From a virus: DNA of 30,366 bases. A program made the position numbers and the translations under genes. Within the stretch, counting starts at the first letter, position 1, and each line of letters starts with the position of its first letter. The notes under the pieces were generated by a model, which saw nothing but the letters and a program-made list of their open reading frames with translations, made no database searches and was not told the DNA's origin. Below are positions 12,313 to 19,999 of this stretch, piece by piece. The DNA lies in the IMG/VR virus record IMGVR_UViG_3300036761_000426, positions 1 through 30,366 of that record, one strand, 5' to 3'.

Positions 12313-12399
12313 CTACCGCTTCCTCAGCCACCAGAAGAACAGGGCGTTCCACACGAACAGCGTGATGAGGACGATGGCTATGGCCTCAAGCCAGCCCAT
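12313..12399 (-). CDS. 28-residue membrane microprotein between portal and minor head genes
   Basis: The reading MGWLEAIAIVLITLF + VWNALFFWWLRKR gives one hydrophobic helix of about 20 residues with a basic end. The ATG at 12397-12399 overlaps the portal stop by one base, and its TAG at 12313-12315 ends directly before the ATG of the minor head gene at 12312. This exact fit at both ends, in a genome where almost all junctions look like this, is the main support. The helix and the positive C-terminus suggest a single-pass inner membrane protein with its C-terminus inside. The role is unknown; a small holin-like or ejection-related function is only a guess. Confidence 0.65.
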   Translation of the reverse strand: MGWLEAIAIVLITLFVWNALFFWWLRKR

Positions 12400-13826
12400 C
12401 ACTTCACCTTCTTGCCGGGCGTGCCGGGAGCGCCTGAAGGGGCTGTGGGGACAGCGGGGTATGCCCCCGGCACGCCTTTGTTGAAGCCCGCCAGCGCGCC
12501 CGAGAAGCTCGGAGGTGGCGGCTCGTTAGCCTTGTCGTCGTCAAGCTGGGCCAGCTCGTCTGGACCCCAGCCGATTTCACGCAGCGCCGTGCTCAGGGGC
12601 ATCCCGGCGCGCACGTAGTTGAGGAGCGCCGTGGTGGTGGACACCGGCTGTTGCGTCTGCATCGAATCCCACGCGGCGCTGACCGTGCCCGGCTTCACCG
12701 GCAGGCCCGAGGCGGCCAGCATGAACTCGCCCAGCTCGCGCCACACCTGCCCGAAGAGTTCGCCGTAGTGCTCGCACTTCTTGACCAGCGGCGCTTCCAT
12801 CGCGATGAGAGCTTCACCCGAGGGGTCGCCGCCCTGCCCGAAGAAGTAGTGCTTGGGGGTACGGCTGACGATGGCGATTGACGAGGCCAGCTTGTCCATC
12901 GCGCCGAGGTACTGGCTGATGTCCACGGTGGGGAACGCGCCCACGCCGGTCGGCTGTACGCCCTCGTCGGCGGGGGCCAGCGTCCACAGTTGGCCGGGGG
13001 CAATCTTGAGCTTCGACGTGTCCTGCTCGGTGATGGCGTAGCGTTGTGGGAAGGAGCCGAACTCGCTGGCTACCATCATGTCGGCCAAGAGCTTGTTGAC
13101 GGCGTCCTGCGAGCTGAGCAGTTTGCGCAGCTCCCCGCCCGGCCCGCGCCGCGAGGTGCGCAGATGGAACACGGGGATGCGCTCGTGAGGGTTGTCTTCG
13201 ACGGGCTGCCCGTCGCCGTCCACACCCCCACCATCGAGGGGCTGGAACGCCTTGCCGCTGCGTGGATTCTTGGGGCCGTACCAGTGCTCGATGCGGTCGG
13301 CGTAGTAGAGGTTCATCAGGGTCAGGTCGCCGTGCCGCCACCACTTGGCCGCGAACTCCATCTCCTTCGGGCGCTCGCGGTCGTAGAAGACGTGCACGAG
13401 CCTTGGGTCGTTGGCGTACAGGTCGAAGCCGCCCTCGTCGTCAGGCCACGCGATGAGGAAACCCTCGCCCGTGACCAGTGCGTCCTTGTGTGCATCGAAC
13501 GCCTCTATCTCGATGTCGGTGGCCGCGCCCAGCTCGGTGAGCCGCTTGCTGGCCGGGCCTTCCTTCTTGGGGGCCTTCGGGTCGGCCATGCCTTCGTCGA
13601 CCTCAAAGCCCTTGAACGTCAGGCGCTCCAAGGCGCTGTCCACCACGACCGCGCACCAGTTCTGCACCCAGCGCGCCTCTATCTTGCGGAAGATGTCCGC
13701 GAGGTGCTCGGTGGAGTAGACGAGCGGCTGGTTGCCGTCGTAGTAGGCGTAGAGGAGGTCGTACCGGGGCCTCTTGTCGGCGAGGGCGTCGTAGGCGCGC
13801 TCGATGTCACTCTTCACGGCTGCCAC
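12399..13826 (-). CDS. portal protein, SPP1 gp6 type
   Basis: A 475-residue protein starting VAAVKSDIERAYDALADK. I chose the GTG at 13824-13826, preceded by GAGGAGG with four bases between; a GTG at 13815-13817 and one at 13875-13877 are alternatives. Typical portal segments are 'YDLLYAYYDGNQPL', 'WVQNWCAVVVDSALERL', 'RIPVFHLRTSRRGPGG', 'FPQRYAITEQD' and 'GGDPSGEALIAMEAPLVKKCE'. The last lies in the stem/wing region that contacts DNA. Twelve copies form the ring through which DNA enters. The C-terminal 60 residues are Pro/Gly/Ala-rich and end KKVK. It follows the large terminase after a 130-base gap. Confidence 0.9.
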   Translation of the reverse strand: MAAVKSDIERAYDALADKRPRYDLLYAYYDGNQPLVYSTEHLADIFRKIEARWVQNWCAVVVDSALERLTFKGFEVDEGMADPKAPKKEGPASKRLTELGAATDIEIEAFDAHKDALVTGEGFLIAWPDDEGGFDLYANDPRLVHVFYDRERPKEMEFAAKWWRHGDLTLMNLYYADRIEHWYGPKNPRSGKAFQPLDGGGVDGDGQPVEDNPHERIPVFHLRTSRRGPGGELRKLLSSQDAVNKLLADMMVASEFGSFPQRYAITEQDTSKLKIAPGQLWTLAPADEGVQPTGVGAFPTVDISQYLGAMDKLASSIAIVSRTPKHYFFGQGGDPSGEALIAMEAPLVKKCEHYGELFGQVWRELGEFMLAASGLPVKPGTVSAAWDSMQTQQPVSTTTALLNYVRAGMPLSTALREIGWGPDELAQLDDDKANEPPPPSFSGALAGFNKGVPGAYPAVPTAPSGAPGTPGKKVK

Positions 13827-13857
13827 GTGTCCTCCTCGCGTCGTTGCCAGCAGTCTA

Positions 13858-13946
13858 CGCCAAATCGCGAACGCCACCCACAGACGCCTCCGCGACTACT
13901 TACCCACACACCTTCACACCCTCGCGCCACATCGCGCGCCTGTGCC
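13858..13946 (+). repeat. intergenic element related in inverted orientation to 25034-25097
   Basis: The gap 13827-13956 holds a core CGCCAAATCGCG at 13858-13869. A 64-base stretch at 13883-13946 aligns without gaps to the reverse complement of 25034-25097. By my count 42 of 64 bases agree, and 21 of the last 25. Two TCGCGC(C/G) words repeat here with a 10-base period (13922-13928 and 13932-13938). The gap lies between the end of the large terminase and the start of the portal, where packaging or control sites can occur. No function can be assigned from sequence alone. Confidence 0.5.
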
Positions 13947-13956
13947 CCCTGCGGGG

Positions 13957-15273
13957 TCATCGGGCGGTACGGCTGGAGGCCGGTGGTTTGCCAAAGCCGC
14001 GACGCCCCACCATCAGCGCCCACATCCCCCAGACCAGCGCGTCTACCCGGTCGGGGCTGCCCATGATTTTCCGGTCGAGGTCGGGGGTGAAGTTGCACAT
14101 CTGGTCTTCGAGCACGCCGAACAGCCCGACGTGGTGGACGCGCTTCTTCTCGTAGAGCGTGGACACCGGCTCGGCGCGCACGTACTTGCCCCGGCTGGCG
14201 TGCACCTTGCGGTAGCTCACGGTCGGGTCCACCGTCCTGATGACGCTCTCAATCAAGTCCCCCCCGTTGTTCGCCTCCCCGATGATGCGGTCGGCCTTAA
14301 AGCGTTCGTAGGCTTCGACCGCGATGCGCGCCCACTCCTCGGGCCTGTACCTGCCCGAGAGGTCGTCGAGCACGTAGCCGATGGCGGGGTCTTCGTCGGT
14401 GCAGCCCACGACCACGATGCCGGTCTCGTCGCTACCCGGTTCGCTGGTCACGGCGGGGTCGATGGCGACCACCACACGGGACATGGCGGGAGCCTCGCTG
14501 ACACGCAGGTCTTCAATCATGTCGCGGTGCCAGAGCGCGCCCGCGATGTCCTCGATGATGTCGCCGTAGATTTCCTGTCGGCCAAGGTTCGTGCCCTCGT
14601 AGGCAGACACGATGTCGTCGAAGAAGCCGGGCGCGAGGTTGGCGGCGTTCTCGTAGGTGGAGCCGACCGTCTGTACCGTGGTCGACTTGGCGACCAGCCC
14701 ACGGATGAGGCGTGTGGGGCGTGGTGTGGTGGTGACCACGACCTGCGGGTTCGCGCCGATGCGCAGCCCGAAGAGCAGCATGTCCCACGCCTCGGGATAG
14801 CGCCACGAGGCCAGCTCGTCACACCACGCCGCGTCGTGCTGCGGCCCCCGTAGGCGGTCGGGCTTGTCGGCTGAGAAGGTCGTCGCGATGGCCCCGTTGG
14901 GCCACGTCAGGCGGCGCTTGGAGGTGAGCCACACGGGCATGAAGTCGGGATGGGAACAGGCGAGGATGCCGCTCTCGCCCTCGACCACGGTGTCGCGCAC
15001 GTCCCCGGCGGTGGCGGCGACCAGCGCGATGCGCTTCTTGCCCTCGACCTCCACCTGCCGCCGCACCCACTCAGCACCCGCCCGCGTCTTGCCGTAGCCG
15101 CGCCCCGAGCGCAGTAGCCAGACGCGCCAGTCGCCCTCTGGGGGGAGCTGAGAGGGACGCGCCCACGCCTCCCACGAGTAGAGGTAGCGCACCTTCTCTT
15201 CGGGCGACAGCTTCGAGAGCGCCCGTTCCAGCCCGGCGTCGGGAAGCTCTGCGAGGTCGGTGGTGAAGGGCAT
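13957..15273 (-). CDS. terL: terminase large subunit (packaging ATPase and nuclease)
   Basis: A 438-residue protein starting MPFTTDLAELPDAGLERAL. The ATG at 15271-15273 overlaps the small-subunit stop; the frame is open to 15618 only as a shadow. The Walker A motif is 'RSGRGYGKT' (residues 55-63). 'AAWCDELASW' (near residue 135) carries the Walker B acidic pair, and 'VVVTTTPRPT' is the coupling motif. The C-terminal RNase H-fold nuclease begins at 'VVVAIDPAVTSEPGSDETGI' and ends with 'DRVDALVWGMWAL'. It pumps phage DNA through the portal and makes headful or cohesive-end cuts. All catalytic motifs look intact. Confidence 0.95.
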   Translation of the reverse strand: MPFTTDLAELPDAGLERALSKLSPEEKVRYLYSWEAWARPSQLPPEGDWRVWLLRSGRGYGKTRAGAEWVRRQVEVEGKKRIALVAATAGDVRDTVVEGESGILACSHPDFMPVWLTSKRRLTWPNGAIATTFSADKPDRLRGPQHDAAWCDELASWRYPEAWDMLLFGLRIGANPQVVVTTTPRPTRLIRGLVAKSTTVQTVGSTYENAANLAPGFFDDIVSAYEGTNLGRQEIYGDIIEDIAGALWHRDMIEDLRVSEAPAMSRVVVAIDPAVTSEPGSDETGIVVVGCTDEDPAIGYVLDDLSGRYRPEEWARIAVEAYERFKADRIIGEANNGGDLIESVIRTVDPTVSYRKVHASRGKYVRAEPVSTLYEKKRVHHVGLFGVLEDQMCNFTPDLDRKIMGSPDRVDALVWGMWALMVGRRGFGKPPASSRTAR

Positions 15274-15761
15274 CAGACCCCCCGCGCCTTCTTCTCCTTC
15301 AGGCGGTGGGCTTGGTCGCGTACCAGTTGGTCGAAGCGCGCCGCGAGGTCTTCGGTGGAAACCGGGACCAGCGGTTCGCCGTTGGGGCCGCTGAACTCGC
15401 TGCGCTTCGGCGCTTCGAGCCCGAGCAGGTCGCTCAAGTCCTTCTGGCACATGCGGCAGCCGGTGAGGTCGCCCCGGCCCATGAAGCGGGCGTAGAGGTT
15501 GTTGAGGCGGTTGACGGCCTTGCCCAGCTCCTCGGCGCGTATCGTCTTGCTGGCCTCGGCGAAGCGTTCGTTGGCCGCCGCGATGTAGCTGTCGATGGTG
15601 CGCGGCTTGACGTTCCACGGCTTCTCGTGGGTCACGCCCTCGGGGTCGGGGTTCGCGGCGTAGTGTATGATTCCGCTCCGGCTCATGCCTGAGAGCTTCA
15701 GCTCGTAGACGCGAGTCACGCGCCGTTCGTGCTCCATCTTGGTCGGTTTGATGCCTGCCAT
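15273..15761 (-). CDS. putative terminase small subunit
   Basis: A 162-residue protein starting MAGIKPTKMEHERRVTRVY. 'YELKLSGMSRSGIIHYAA' (residues 19-36) reads as a helix-turn-helix of the type used by small terminases to bind the packaging site. A helical middle ('RTIDSYIAAANERFAEASKT') and a charged C-terminal helix ('RDQAHRLKEKKARGV') follow. GGAGGGC precedes the ATG at 15759-15761. The gene starts 16 bases after the folE stop and overlaps terL. This links the packaging genes to the DNA modification operon in one probable transcript. The call rests mainly on position and size. Confidence 0.7.
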   Translation of the reverse strand: MAGIKPTKMEHERRVTRVYELKLSGMSRSGIIHYAANPDPEGVTHEKPWNVKPRTIDSYIAAANERFAEASKTIRAEELGKAVNRLNNLYARFMGRGDLTGCRMCQKDLSDLLGLEAPKRSEFSGPNGEPLVPVSTEDLAARFDQLVRDQAHRLKEKKARGV

Positions 15762-15777: not shown

Positions 15778-16329
15778 CTAGCGGTCGCGACAGAGGCTCA
15801 GGAACTCCTCACGCATTGAGGCGTTGTGCCTGAACGCGCCGCGCATGGCGCTGCTGGTCATGGTGCCTTCCGTCCTGATGCCACGCATCACCATGCAAGT
15901 ATGCACCCCCCGCGCCACGACCCCCACGTTCTCGCTCTTGGTCATCGCTTGGATGTCGTCGGCCATCTGCTCGACGAGCCGCTCCTGCACCTGTAGTGAG
16001 TGCGCGTGCTTGTGCGCGATGCGGGCGAACTTCGAGAGGCCGATGATGTTCTGGTCAGTGGTGTAGCCACAGGACACGTCGCACCAGAAGGGCAGCAAGT
16101 GGTGTTCGCAGAACGACCACACCCGCATGCCGCTGACGACGACCAGTTGGTCGGCCTTGGTCGTCTCGAAGCAGGTGTCGAGCTTGCCGGGGTCGTAGTC
16201 GATGAACTCGTGCCACATCGCTGCCCAGCGACGCGGTGTGTCGCGTAGCCCTTGCCGGTCGGGGTCTTCCCCGAGTGCTTCCAACACGGCTCGGCAGGCG
16301 TCTTCCAGTCTGTCGCTGTCAACGGCCAC
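15778..16329 (-). CDS. folE: GTP cyclohydrolase I (preQ0 pathway, step 1)
   Basis: A 183-residue protein read from GTG at 16327-16329, which lies inside the end of queE (11-base overlap), with GGGGGAAC upstream. The enzyme turns GTP into 7,8-dihydroneopterin triphosphate. The zinc ligands are C74 and H77 in 'FCEHHLLPF' and C145 in 'GVHTCMVMRGI', with H143 next to the catalytic site. 'QVQERLVEQMADDI' and 'TSSAMRGAFR' are further family blocks. The length is close to bacterial GCYH-IA. Since it sits with queC, queD and queE, it most likely feeds 7-deazaguanine synthesis rather than folate. No folate genes are nearby. Confidence 0.95.
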   Translation of the reverse strand: MAVDSDRLEDACRAVLEALGEDPDRQGLRDTPRRWAAMWHEFIDYDPGKLDTCFETTKADQLVVVSGMRVWSFCEHHLLPFWCDVSCGYTTDQNIIGLSKFARIAHKHAHSLQVQERLVEQMADDIQAMTKSENVGVVARGVHTCMVMRGIRTEGTMTSSAMRGAFRHNASMREEFLSLCRDR

Positions 16330-17002
16330 GTTCGTTCCCCCAGAGTAGCACGTGCAGTTGGGGCAGCACCTTGACGGGGCTCATCCAGCCGATGCTCGTG
16401 GCCTCGCTGACCAGCCACTCCCAGCGCGTCAGGAGGTCGCCCAGCGGTTCCCCCGGTAGGGACACGACCGAGAGGGTGAGGGGGAGCTTGGGCAGCAGCG
16501 TCGAGAGGTGGTAGGCGAACAGCAGGTCGGCGTGGTCGAGCACGGCCACCTTCGTCTCGGCGCTGTAGGCGCGCCACGCCATGTGCTTGAGCCGTTCCCA
16601 GTCGGGGTCGTCACAGCCGCTCGACGGCGGCTTGGGACTCAGGGTCACGAGGTCGAGCGCCGCCAGCCACGGCGGGTCGATGGTGCCCTGCGTCTCGACG
16701 CTGATGAATCGCTTGCGGTCGCTGCGCAGCGCCCCGATGAGCGCGCCGCAGTCCTGTAGGCAGGGGTTGCCGCCGGTGAGCACGATGAGCGGCTCCGTCC
16801 CGGCGGGCTCGTGGACGCGCACCTCGGCCATGATGTCGTCGACCGTGCGTGCCACCCCCTCCCTCTTCTGCGCGTAGGGCGTGTCACACCACGAGCACCG
16901 CTGGTCGCAGCCCGCCAGCCGGATGAAGGCACACGGTCTCCCCGCCAGCGAGCCCTCGCCTTGGATGGTCGGCCCGAAGACTTCACTGACGTAGAGGCTC
17001 AT
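16319..17002 (-). CDS. queE: 7-carboxy-7-deazaguanine synthase, radical SAM (preQ0 pathway, step 3)
   Basis: A 227-residue protein starting MSLYVSEVFGPTIQGEGSLA, the classic QueE opening with the GEGSLAG substrate loop. I chose the ATG at 17000-17002, which overlaps the queD stop as ATGA; a start at 17020 would lie inside queD. The iron-sulfur cluster motif is C32-x3-C36-x2-C39 in 'GCDQRCSWCDT'. 'IVLTGGNPCLQDC' supplies the SAM-binding GG loop, and 'FISVETQGT' and 'LSPKPPSSGCDD' match the family. It converts 6-carboxy-tetrahydropterin to 7-carboxy-7-deazaguanine. The C-terminal third is diverged ('LPKLPLTLSVVSLPGEP'). Confidence 0.95.
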   Translation of the reverse strand: MSLYVSEVFGPTIQGEGSLAGRPCAFIRLAGCDQRCSWCDTPYAQKREGVARTVDDIMAEVRVHEPAGTEPLIVLTGGNPCLQDCGALIGALRSDRKRFISVETQGTIDPPWLAALDLVTLSPKPPSSGCDDPDWERLKHMAWRAYSAETKVAVLDHADLLFAYHLSTLLPKLPLTLSVVSLPGEPLGDLLTRWEWLVSEATSIGWMSPVKVLPQLHVLLWGNERGR

Positions 17003-17355
17003 GCGCGGTACTCGGCCCACGTCTTGCCGGTCTCGCTGACGCGCACCGCGCTGACCAGCGGTTCGGTCTCGTGGAAGATGTCGTAGAGGTCATGGGCGAT
17101 GTTCTCGGCGGTCGGCCAGTTGGGCATCACGTCGTTGAGGCAGCGGTGGTCGAAGGTCGCGTCCAGCCACTCCTTCACGAAGCCCAGCCTGCGGTAGTCG
17201 ACCACGAAGTCGGTAGCCGGTTCCAAGCTCTCGCTCTGGCACTCCACGACGACCACATAGTTGTGCCCGTGCATGTGGGAGCAGGGGTGCGTGTCGGGGA
17301 GGTGTTCAAGCACGTGCGCGGCGGCGAAGTCGAAGGTCTTGGCGATGGTGTACAT
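16999..17355 (-). CDS. queD: 6-carboxy-5,6,7,8-tetrahydropterin synthase (preQ0 pathway, step 2)
   Basis: A 118-residue protein starting MYTIAKTFDFAAAHVLEHLP. The ATG at 17353-17355 overlaps the queC stop; the longer frame to 17499 is a shadow. Zinc is held by H14, H29 and H31 ('FAAAH' and 'HMHGHNY'), and C25 four residues before HGH is the catalytic cysteine. 'FVVDYRRLGFVKEWLDATFDHRCLND' (seen in two parts) carries the usual D-H pair, and 'PTAENIAHDLYD' is the E-rich family motif. The size matches bacterial QueD. It takes the FolE product to 6-carboxy-tetrahydropterin for QueE. Confidence 0.95.
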   Translation of the reverse strand: MYTIAKTFDFAAAHVLEHLPDTHPCSHMHGHNYVVVVECQSESLEPATDFVVDYRRLGFVKEWLDATFDHRCLNDVMPNWPTAENIAHDLYDIFHETEPLVSAVRVSETGKTWAEYRA

Positions 17356-18203
17356 CAGGCTCGTTCCCTTGCCCGCAGCACAGCCCGTGCCGCGTCGTAG
17401 TTGTTCTTCGCGATGGCGGGCCACTCCTGTACCCACGCCGCGCCGTAGCCGTTCAAGAACTCGCGCCAGTTGCTGGCCTTCACGTCCTGCCACTCCCAAG
17501 GGTTCGCGAGCAGGTTTTCATGGATGCCGTTGTTCGACATCGCGACCCAACGCCGGAAGCAGGCCATGCACGCGCCACAGCCCTTGACCTCTACGCCGTC
17601 GACCTCGTTGGAGTAGCAGGAGCGGCTTGCCAAGAGCAGCGCCCGGTCATCGTCGGTGGGGAAGTGTCGCAGGTAGAGCGCGACCAGTTCGCTCTTGGTC
17701 AGAGAGCGGAACGGAGCCGCGAAGCGAATACGACGGCCCTCACTGAAGGAGTAGGTCTTGCTGGCAAGGCGCAGGAAGCGGCCCGCCTTGTCACGCCCCG
17801 ACTCGCCCGAGATGGCGGCGAGGTAGATGACATCGCTGCTCAGTACCGCGACCCCGCCGAGCATCAGGTTGCGCAGGTCGACGTGGGCGTTCTCGGTGTT
17901 CTCGACATCGGCCAAGAGCAAGCGTCCCTGCGGCTCCACATCAACGTGCATGGTAGGTAGCTGGCTGACGAAGCAGAGGTGCTTGAGGTGTTCCAACTGG
18001 CGCAGCTCCGCGCCCTCGTAGGCGTGCCCGATGGGGATGTACTGTAGCCGAGGTTCGCCCAGTAGCCGCCACGCCATGACGCTGTCCATGCCGCCTGAGA
18101 AGAGGAGCGTGCGGCGTAGCCCCGGCGGGAACGGCTTGCCCCCCCCGTGGTAGCGGTAGGGACCGTCACCAGCGTGCTTCAACAGGCGGTTGGCGTACAT
18201 CAT
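17355..18203 (-). CDS. queC: 7-cyano-7-deazaguanine (preQ0) synthase
   Basis: A 282-residue protein starting MMYANRLLKHAGDGPY; GGGAG precedes the ATG pair at 18198-18203. The ATP PP-loop is 'LLFSGGMDSVMAW' (S36-S41). Four zinc cysteines lie at C196, C209, C212 and C215 ('KGCGACMACFRRW'), as in QueC. 'ISGESGRDKAGRF' and 'FAAPFRSLTKSELV' match the family's middle and its 'P...LTK.E' block. It turns 7-carboxy-7-deazaguanine into preQ0 with ATP and ammonia. It is longer than bacterial QueC (about 230 residues), with about 30 extra residues at the N-terminus and a C-terminal tail after the cysteines. No glutaminase (Gat) domain is fused to it. Confidence 0.9.
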   Translation of the reverse strand: MMYANRLLKHAGDGPYRYHGGGKPFPPGLRRTLLFSGGMDSVMAWRLLGEPRLQYIPIGHAYEGAELRQLEHLKHLCFVSQLPTMHVDVEPQGRLLLADVENTENAHVDLRNLMLGGVAVLSSDVIYLAAISGESGRDKAGRFLRLASKTYSFSEGRRIRFAAPFRSLTKSELVALYLRHFPTDDDRALLLASRSCYSNEVDGVEVKGCGACMACFRRWVAMSNNGIHENLLANPWEWQDVKASNWREFLNGYGAAWVQEWPAIAKNNYDAARAVLRARERA

Positions 18204-18424
18204 GGCTGCTCCCGGTGTGTCGAGTGGCGGTCGAGGTAGAGGTGGCTGGCCCATGCCAGCACGATGATGAGCGGTAGGCTGTCGTCGTGCAGCCAACGGT
18301 GAGCGCGCACGAGGGGGTGTGTCGCGGGTAGCCACTTGCCCCGCCACGCGAAAAGCAGGAGCACGAGGTCAGGTAGTACGGCTACGCCCGCTCCGAGCGC
18401 CATATGGCGGCCTACGCTAGCCAT
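18200..18424 (-). CDS. small membrane protein between dpdA and queC, weakly DUF457-like
   Basis: A 74-residue protein starting MASVGRHMALGAGVAVLP. It overlaps dpdA by eight bases and queC by four (ATGA), so it belongs to the same translation-coupled run. Two hydrophobic helices are visible, 'ALGAGVAVLPDLVLLLFAW' and 'LPLIIVLAWASHLYLDRHS'. The 'LPDLVLL', 'RAHRWLHD' and 'HLYLDRHSTH' pieces recall the metal-binding histidines of the DUF457/YdjM membrane hydrolase family, but the protein is much shorter than those. Its function is unknown. Whether it has any part in DNA modification cannot be told from sequence. Confidence 0.65.
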   Translation of the reverse strand: MASVGRHMALGAGVAVLPDLVLLLFAWRGKWLPATHPLVRAHRWLHDDSLPLIIVLAWASHLYLDRHSTHREQP

Positions 18425-19373
18425 GGACGGCTCTGCCTACCGACGCCGTATCGCGCAGGTGTGAGCTGCTCTCCGCGAGGTACAGGCGCATGCCCTGCTG
18501 GGCCTTGGCGAAGTTGCCCCCAGCCCCCAGCCCGGCACCGTCTGCGAGGTAGAGGCTGACGCCTTTGCGTGTCACCGACAGCGGCCTCTTGACGCCCTTG
18601 CGTTTCGGTATCTCCACGATTCCCCAGCGTTTGCGCAGCCACGCCTCGGCCTTCATGTAGGAGAGCGCCGAGAGGGCGCAGTTCACATCGCGAGTGTTCT
18701 TGTCGCGGCGCGCCAGCTCGGCGGGGTCGAAGCCCAAGGCACGGATGCTCACGCGGTGCTTACGTGCCGCCTCGGGGTCACCGAGTTGCACGTTGTTGAA
18801 GCGCCCGCCGCGCTCGTCGAAGACCGGCACCAAGCCGTAGCGAAAGCCCGCCCCCCACGAGGAGGAGTCCACGCTGTACCACGGGAAGCTCTTGAGCACG
18901 TCCCAACTGGTGATGCCGAAGCCGTGCAGGGCGGCCTTGCCCTCGGCCATGCGGAAGCACTTGATGAGGTGGCGATAGACGGCGGGGGTGTTCGTCTGGG
19001 TGTTGCCCGCGATGCCCCCGAGGGCCACGTAGTCGTACTCGTCCAGCATCTGCTGGTAGACCGCCCACGGTTCCCCACCGTGGAACACCGGCAGGGGCTG
19101 GAGGCCGCGCCCTTCGAGGTAGGCTTGGTTCTTCAAGCCCGCCTCCACGTCCCCCTTCACGTCGAGGTTGGCGTAGACCGTGAACAGGCCCTCGTACTTC
19201 TCCAGCCAGTCGGCGTAGCTGGTGACATCAACCTCGCCACCCTGTGACCATGCCGAGTAAGCACCCGAGTCGACGAAGATGTCAGGGTAGTCGGGGGCAA
19301 AGTAGTTCTCCAGCGTGGCGCGCACGCCCTCGTTCTTGTAGTACCAGAACGAGAGCAGGATGCGCAGCCTCAT
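18417..19373 (-). CDS. dpdA: DpdA: DNA guanine transglycosylase inserting a 7-deazaguanine base
   Basis: A 318-residue protein starting MRLRILLSFWYYKNEGV. It reads as the short phage form of DpdA, a TIM-barrel relative of tRNA-guanine transglycosylase. Key points are D35 in 'FVDSGAYSAW' (the base-binding/catalytic Asp of the family), D71 in 'YANLDVKGD', 'YVALGGIAGN' (residues 115-124), 'HGFGITS' (150-156) and D169 in 'YSVDSSSW' (candidate nucleophile). The C-terminal zinc CxCxxC...H module of tRNA TGTs is missing, as expected for DpdA. 'NCALSALSYMKAEAWLRKRWG' lies further on (read in parts). It follows a ParB-like gene with ATGA overlap and heads the queCDE-folE run that makes its substrate. 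Confidence 0.9.
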   Translation of the reverse strand: MRLRILLSFWYYKNEGVRATLENYFAPDYPDIFVDSGAYSAWSQGGEVDVTSYADWLEKYEGLFTVYANLDVKGDVEAGLKNQAYLEGRGLQPLPVFHGGEPWAVYQQMLDEYDYVALGGIAGNTQTNTPAVYRHLIKCFRMAEGKAALHGFGITSWDVLKSFPWYSVDSSSWGAGFRYGLVPVFDERGGRFNNVQLGDPEAARKHRVSIRALGFDPAELARRDKNTRDVNCALSALSYMKAEAWLRKRWGIVEIPKRKGVKRPLSVTRKGVSLYLADGAGLGAGGNFAKAQQGMRLYLAESSSHLRDTASVGRAVHG

Positions 19374-19999
19374 TGGAAGACGCTGCGCGCGGCGGTGAGG
19401 ATGCTCGCCAACCTCTCGTGCTCGCTGTCACCCTCCGCGAGGAAGACCACTTCGTTCCACAGTTGCAAGGTCTCAGGGGGCACCTTCAGGCGCAGCACCG
19501 GCCAGAAGTCGTCGGGTAGTGGTGTGCCGTGTTCGCGCTCAAGGTCGTCCAGTGATGGGGGCGCGCCGTAGAGGCTCACGTCGTCGAGCAGGTGGGCCAT
19601 CTCCTCAGAGGTGAAGCCGGTCAGGGCGATGTCGTAGTCGGCGGCTTCCAGTGAGGTTAGGACGGCGGCCAAGGCGGCTTCGTCCCAGCGGCCCTGCACC
19701 TTGTTGAGGGCCACGTTGAGGGCTTGCTCGCTGGTCTCCGAGACATCGACTTCGATGACCTGTGTCGTCTCGGTGCCCATGTCCATCAGGACGCTGAGGC
19801 GCTGATGACCGCCGACCACATGCCCCGTCTTCTTGTTCACGATGATGGGGTCGACCAGCCCCCATGTCTCGATGCTGGCCTTCAGCGAATCGTACTGCGG
19901 GTCACCCGGTTCGAGCGCGACGCGAGGGTTGTACGGGGCCGGTGTGAGGTCGGCCAGAGCGACCGTTTTCATGGTGAAGTTGTCCGTCGTTTTCGGCAC
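19370..19999 (-). CDS. ParB/sulfiredoxin-fold protein coupled to dpdA
   Basis: A 209-residue protein read from GTG at 19997-19999, seven bases after GAGGAGG. The ParB N-terminal domain covers residues 10-95: 'VALADLTPAPYNPRVA', then 'SIETWGLVDPIIVNKKTGHVVGGHQR' (seen in parts) with the family's G-G-H-x-R box, then 'VDVSETSEQALNVALNK'. The C-terminal half is acidic and has no DNA-binding HTH. Phages often pair ParB-like domains with DNA methylases and other modification genes. These domains can act as nucleases or CTP/ATP-binding switches. Its ATGA overlap with dpdA suggests a role in the modification system, but this is inference. Confidence 0.8.
   Translation of the reverse strand: MPKTTDNFTMKTVALADLTPAPYNPRVALEPGDPQYDSLKASIETWGLVDPIIVNKKTGHVVGGHQRLSVLMDMGTETTQVIEVDVSETSEQALNVALNKVQGRWDEAALAAVLTSLEAADYDIALTGFTSEEMAHLLDDVSLYGAPPSLDDLEREHGTPLPDDFWPVLRLKVPPETLQLWNEVVFLAEGDSEHERLASILTAARSVFQ

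Follow-up and report, generated by a model that had tools for sequence, protein, structure and literature searches.

In bacterial Dpd restriction-modification islands, DpdA, a protein of the tRNA-guanine transglycosylase (TGT) family, is encoded with a ParB-superfamily partner, and the ParB-like ATPase DpdB acts with DpdA (PMC12839542). Among phages, CAjan modifies ~32% of its guanines and loses the modification when dpdA is deleted, and ~28% of the guanines in Rosebush DNA are present as deoxy-preQ0 (dPreQ0) (PMC6884629). Mycobacterium phage CRB2 carries the genes ParB-DpdA-QueC-QueD-QueE-FolE-TerS-TerL, and the product of its gene 1 has already been proposed to be a DpdB-like partner (PMC6392294). 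Here, we describe a cassette of the same order and direction in IMG/VR virus record IMGVR_UViG_3300036761_000426, a fragment of 30,366 bases, open at both ends, that was analyzed whole (the window). It is probably a phage 7-deazaguanine DNA-modification cassette, in which FolE, QueD and QueE would produce 7-carboxy-7-deazaguanine (CDG), a divergent QueC would amidate it, and DpdA with a ParB-like protein would insert the product into DNA as an anti-restriction measure. As first described, the cassette is of an already known kind (CRB2, Rosebush species); what goes beyond that description is a non-canonical QueC clade and a recurrent position upstream of the terminase large subunit gene (terL).

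All recognized genes of the window lie on the minus strand, and those of the cassette follow one another as ParB-like protein (19370..19999; 209 amino acids, GTG start), DpdA (18417..19373; 318 amino acids), a small hydrophobic membrane protein (18200..18424; 74 amino acids), a QueC-family enzyme (17355..18203; 282 amino acids), the 6-carboxytetrahydropterin synthase QueD (16999..17355; 118 amino acids), QueE (16319..17002) and the GTP cyclohydrolase I FolE (15778..16329; 183 amino acids, GTG start), with an overlap of 1-11 bases at every junction. A gap of only 16 bases, containing a good ribosome-binding site (GGTAGGAGGGCGGC), separates folE from a probable terminase small subunit gene, terS, which is followed by terL and a portal gene. 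The unbroken run from the ParB-like gene through folE, with the terminase 16 bases on, had been proposed in a sequence-only reading and was borne out by the coordinates and by family searches. FolE was matched by its PHROG family (3.9e-49), PF01227 (175 bits) and the solved enzyme 1wm9 (1.4e-42), and alignment to the latter showed that the zinc ligands are kept (CEHH..HTCM). QueD was matched by PHROG (6e-16), PF01242 (91 bits) and 4ntm (5e-17), with C-x3-HGH and DH kept. For QueE, the matches were PHROG (5.5e-36), TIGR03365 (184 bits, below the 206-bit cut-off) and, over the full length, 5tgs (6e-35), in which the CX3CX2C motif is shared. Gene content, gene order, folds, pathway residues and recurrence of the cassette are directly established.

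DpdA belongs with phrog_887 (queuine tRNA-ribosyltransferase; 1.5e-44), whereas Pfam, which agreed with the other PHROG assignments of the cassette, gave no match to the protein and the NCBIfam DpdA equivalog model scored 15.6 bits, far under its 200-bit cut-off. Its closest DpdA, that of Mycobacterium phage Typha, is 38% identical. Five positions are invariant in 43 viral DpdA relatives, including Asp35 (DSGA) and Asp169 (SVDSS), which by motif would be the two catalytic aspartates of TGT. The predicted structure (mean pLDDT confidence 84.9) retrieved only TGTs among the structural matches listed, one of them a preQ0-bound structure, the best having a Z score of 15.6 and a root-mean-square deviation of 2.9 over 233 residues. 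This fold, together with a chemically typed member among the nearest cassettes, upheld the assignment to a 7-deazaguanine DNA-modification pathway. In a separate viral contig, a DpdA frame of ~732 amino acids (L009:8677-10875) is, as judged from its sequence, interrupted right behind the catalytic SSDS loop by a long insert that resembles an intein, and a DpdA frame of the same length occurs at L057:8686-10884.

Several described cassettes share this arrangement. The order of the window recurs in Gordonia phage Sour and in phage Opia, which is filed under Rosebushvirus rosebush, and ParB, DpdA, QueE and FolE of CRB2 are ~30-34% identical to their counterparts here. The cassettes of the Rosebush/CRB2 type (cluster B mycobacteriophages) differ in that their QueC is canonical; the additional membrane protein is particular to the window. 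Mycobacterium phages Typha and Bipper have the same ParB-to-terminase frame but no QueC, an unrelated 141-amino-acid protein standing in its place (L002:2043-2468, L003:2047-2472), and they may produce their base by a route that lacks QueC. Gut Bacteroides-type phages (the L008 and L067 group) share both the order and the divergent QueC with the window, whereas their terminase is of another family, with a T7-type RNase H domain, and their ParB is shorter. As in the dPreQ0 cassettes of phages (group 2 of PMC6884629), the window encodes a DpdA of TGT fold, FolE, QueD and QueE with catalytic motifs, and a QueC homolog. It resembles the bacterial Dpd islands in pairing a TGT-family DpdA with a ParB-superfamily protein, but no other Dpd genes were recognized in it. 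Mycobacterium phage StAugustine (L094) carries an amidotransferase fusion in the same frame, its order being ParB, DnaQ-like exonuclease, DpdA, Gat-type QueC, QueD, QueE, FolE and terminase.

The QueC-family protein is the most unusual member of the cassette. It was recognized by PHROG QueC (1.2e-14) and by PF06508 (41.7 bits, above the cut-off). Canonical QueC (PF06508 cluster 1) is defined by YxQxHxxE, VPxRN, YPDC, an SGGxDS loop and zinc cysteines, and each of the substitutions Y35A, R99A, Y131A and Y189A inactivates the E. coli enzyme (PMC13329287; 2026). The window protein shares the fold with canonical QueC and keeps the loop (SGGMDS), Arg99, Asn100, Asp133, Lys165, Tyr189 and four cysteines, the latter as C-x12-CxxCxxC with a spacing of 12 instead of 8. 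The VPxRN motif reads VDLRN, with the proline replaced. In contrast, YxQxHxxE is lost, positions 35, 37, 39 and 42 being Ile, His, Tyr and Glu, and so is YPDC, which reads GRDK, with Tyr131 replaced by Gly (or gapped) and Cys134 by Lys. The sequence-only reading had placed all known catalytic residues in all four enzymes; this holds for the motifs of FolE, QueD and QueE but for QueC only as regards the two motifs established earlier, SGGxDS and the four cysteines, as the protein lacks Tyr35, His39, Tyr131 and Cys134.

These changes are shared by a group of phage proteins. Among 54 aligned non-canonical phage QueC sequences, near-copies included, Tyr35 was lost in 51 and His39 had become Tyr in 45; Tyr was absent from the six commonest residues at position 131, and Cys134 was replaced by Lys in 42 and Arg in five. 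Glu42 was kept in 53 of the 54, and Arg99, Asn100, Asp133, Lys165 and Cys188 in all. In the phylogenetic tree, 42 sequences of the divergent type formed a single group (support 100/99), distinct from both canonical QueC and Gat-fused QueC, and the window protein is a member of this clade (C*). Scanning viral contigs with a single DpdA or QueC sequence gave nothing, and alignment-based searches were required; the divergent QueC was then found on 39 viral contigs, in most of them beside or near dpdA. A tblastn search with the window protein retrieved no relative among mycobacteriophages and, from the phage collection, only Bacteroides phage BS162P1 and two records of phages from the human gut. 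In GTDB species genomes, a scan whose reach was limited by the short patterns used yielded only two relatives, one of which is probably a prophage, since its cassette is followed by terminase and portal genes. Members of this altered clade thus come almost exclusively from viruses. Four lineages (contigs L013, L033/L034, L036 and L065) carry two QueC-family genes, one of the divergent Lys/Arg type and one of the canonical, PDN or an unclassed type.

The proposed pathway runs as follows. FolE, QueD and QueE would convert GTP to CDG, and the divergent QueC would activate the CDG carboxylate with ATP and amidate it to the amide ADG, perhaps continuing to preQ0. DpdA would then exchange guanines in the phage DNA for this product, with the ParB-like protein as its partner, a putative NTPase that tracks DNA, and host restriction enzymes would fail on the modified DNA. 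In favor of this pathway, the divergent QueC retains its ATP loop, its zinc cysteines and the Asp by which the edge of the deazaguanine is read. That the genes form a cassette for DNA modification is well supported; the enzyme activities, the identity of the base, the role of ParB and the anti-restriction role are what we infer. Some observations weigh against the pathway as drawn. DpdB models did not match the window ParB-like protein. The divergent QueC lacks Tyr35 and Tyr131, and alanine at either position inactivates E. coli QueC (PMC13329287); moreover, it occurs in none of the chemically typed phages examined: CAjan, Dp-1 and the Rosebush species have a canonical QueC, and CP220 has a near-canonical one. 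Finally, a tailoring gene may lie elsewhere in the genome, the record being a fragment. Given the missing essential residues and the absence of the divergent type from the typed phages examined, preQ0 is only one of several candidates for the base. We consider preQ0 about an even bet and ADG somewhat unlikely, with another C7 derivative or a host-supplied base more unlikely still.

One rival account, about as likely as not, is a plain preQ0 cassette: the divergent protein would be a QueC that evolves fast yet keeps its full function, and the DNA base would be dPreQ0. The protein occupies the QueC slot of Rosebush-type cassettes, it is the sole QueC match in the record, and Arg99, Asn100, Asp133, Lys165, Tyr189 and the four cysteines are all kept. 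In line with the earlier reading, QueC has no GAT domain and a search of the 30-kb fragment found no QueF. On the other hand, almost the entire clade has lost Tyr35 and Tyr131, with correlated changes of His39 to Tyr and Cys134 to Lys, a pattern that resembles a remodelled pocket and not drift, and the typed phages examined retain canonical or near-canonical QueC. The earlier proposal that the DNA base is probably preQ0 therefore holds less firmly than it was put: no QueF was found in the record, itself a fragment, but the QueC comes from a clade lacking residues that the E. coli enzyme requires to make preQ0. Weak QueF matches in other viral contigs were not counted as QueF, as the one checked, in L017, fell on FolE, a T-fold relative. 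In L011 and L014, small reading frames of T-fold type that match QueF weakly lie between dpdA and terL, and no QueD, QueE or FolE was detected in the locus.

A second explanation, possible but the less probable of the two, is that the divergent protein is a different deazaguanine ligase, either an ADG-only synthase or a conjugase like Cap9 or QatC, and that the DNA contains dADG or another base, or that host preQ0 is used. Structural comparison of the window QueC gave a tie between QatC, QueC and Cap9 as best matches (Z 15.0), the pocket residues are altered, and the presence of the divergent type next to another QueC type in four lineages suggests distinct jobs. However, the QatC model scored 20.5 bits against a cut-off of 280, no QatB or CD-NTase was recognized among the window genes scanned, and phage CP220, whose dG is entirely replaced by dADG, encodes a near-canonical QueC, which means that ADG does not depend on the divergent type; for the same reason, the idea that the divergent type is the one that makes ADG is not supported. 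In Cap9 of CBASS, the counterpart of Tyr131 stacks on the base and that of Asp133 reads it (PMC13279940), and the divergent QueC would thus keep base reading without the stacking Tyr. Its residues suggest that the pocket is altered. Residues 229-280 form a C-terminal extension not found in canonical QueC, through which QatC alone aligns among the five best structural matches.

The ParB-like protein contains a ParB/Srx box (GGHQR) and was matched by PHROG ParB-like (5.5e-40), by the N-terminal domain of the phage DNA methyltransferase phrog_498 (5.8e-41) and by PADLOC MTase_II (2.2e-36). Among its better matches, it is 40-48% identical to methyltransferase ParB domains, compared with 24-35% to the ParB of other named cassettes, and a model built from cassette ParBs retrieved those methyltransferases (E values of 1e-38 and 2e-44). 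These similarities suggest that it is a shared modification accessory and not a partition protein, and in the window it is likely a DNA-modification accessory of DpdA.

The sequence-only reading had also noted that the modification genes lie directly before the packaging genes, and this position proved to be real and recurrent. We sampled viral contigs fetched by DpdA or QueC, using lineages below 50% identity and contigs of at least 25 kb with terL located; contigs without a detected terL were dropped. In 10 of 20 DpdA lineages, terL lay at most 3 kb downstream on the same strand, against a chance expectation of 0.62 (P ~7e-11), values to be read with the facts that the 3-kb limit was chosen after the contigs had been inspected, that the search seeds themselves carry the arrangement and bias the sampling towards it, and that the lineages are not independent. 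The terL-adjacent cassettes had four internal orders (B-A-C-D-E-F, D-E-F-A-B-C, E-D-F-C-A-B and D-E-F-C-A-B-B, where B is parB-like, A is dpdA, C-E are queC-queE and F is folE) and differed in terminase family; the cassette-terminase link is therefore not merely one inherited block. A ParB-like gene stood beside dpdA in 11/11 terL-adjacent lineages and in 2/11 others (Fisher p 2e-4).

It is possible that modification is timed to packaging, for which these genomes offer circumstantial support. It is about as likely as not that the terminase neighbourhood is without function and that accessory genes simply insert often where the late operon begins. ParB-methyltransferase genes fill the same slot in FP_Epona (7 bases before terS) and Javan51 (a few genes before terS), and the annotation of CAjan shows no terminase within 3 kb of queC; since CAjan modifies its DNA, terminase adjacency is seemingly not required. 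An insertion site alone fits less well with the number of adjacent lineages and the four internal orders, the sampling bias being borne in mind, or with the association between an adjoining parB and terL adjacency. In a more far-reaching reading, which we regard as unlikely, the divergent QueC would be a viral enzyme type of its own whose CDG pocket has been remodelled, the base would differ from preQ0, and the ParB-like protein would be a general DNA-modification clamp that also serves phage methyltransferases and links modification to the terminase.

The prediction of DNA bases from phage genes depends on QueC calls. With a viral QueC clade that lacks residues required to make preQ0, it may go wrong for many phages of the gut and the environment. 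The repeated linkage of ParB, DpdA and terminase, with the same ParB on methyltransferases that can take the same slot, provides a concrete hypothesis for coordination of modification and packaging. The cassette itself probably serves escape from restriction enzymes.

The window has a GC content of 66%. A DNA-level search of the phage collection with this stretch gave no match, no tRNA genes were found in the record, and promoter and terminator scans remained at chance level. The 74-amino-acid membrane protein had no relatives in any family library or in related loci, and a YdjM-type hydrolase, suggested by its HLYLD..TH ending, was dropped when Pfam gave no match even at an E value of 5; the codon pattern of its gene is that of a real gene. 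TerS (15273..15761; 162 amino acids) was assigned by its position directly before terL, the family libraries giving no match. TerL (13957..15273; 438 amino acids; PF03237 7e-23, PF17289 4e-13), whose start overlaps the terS stop (TGATG), is at most 56% identical to other phage TerL, and the portal protein (12399..13877; phrog_104, 5.5e-74) begins the structural module. The cassette stands at the start of the packaging/late operon; upstream are genes for HNH endonucleases, an Erf-like annealing protein and a protein of replication initiation, and downstream are head and tail genes.

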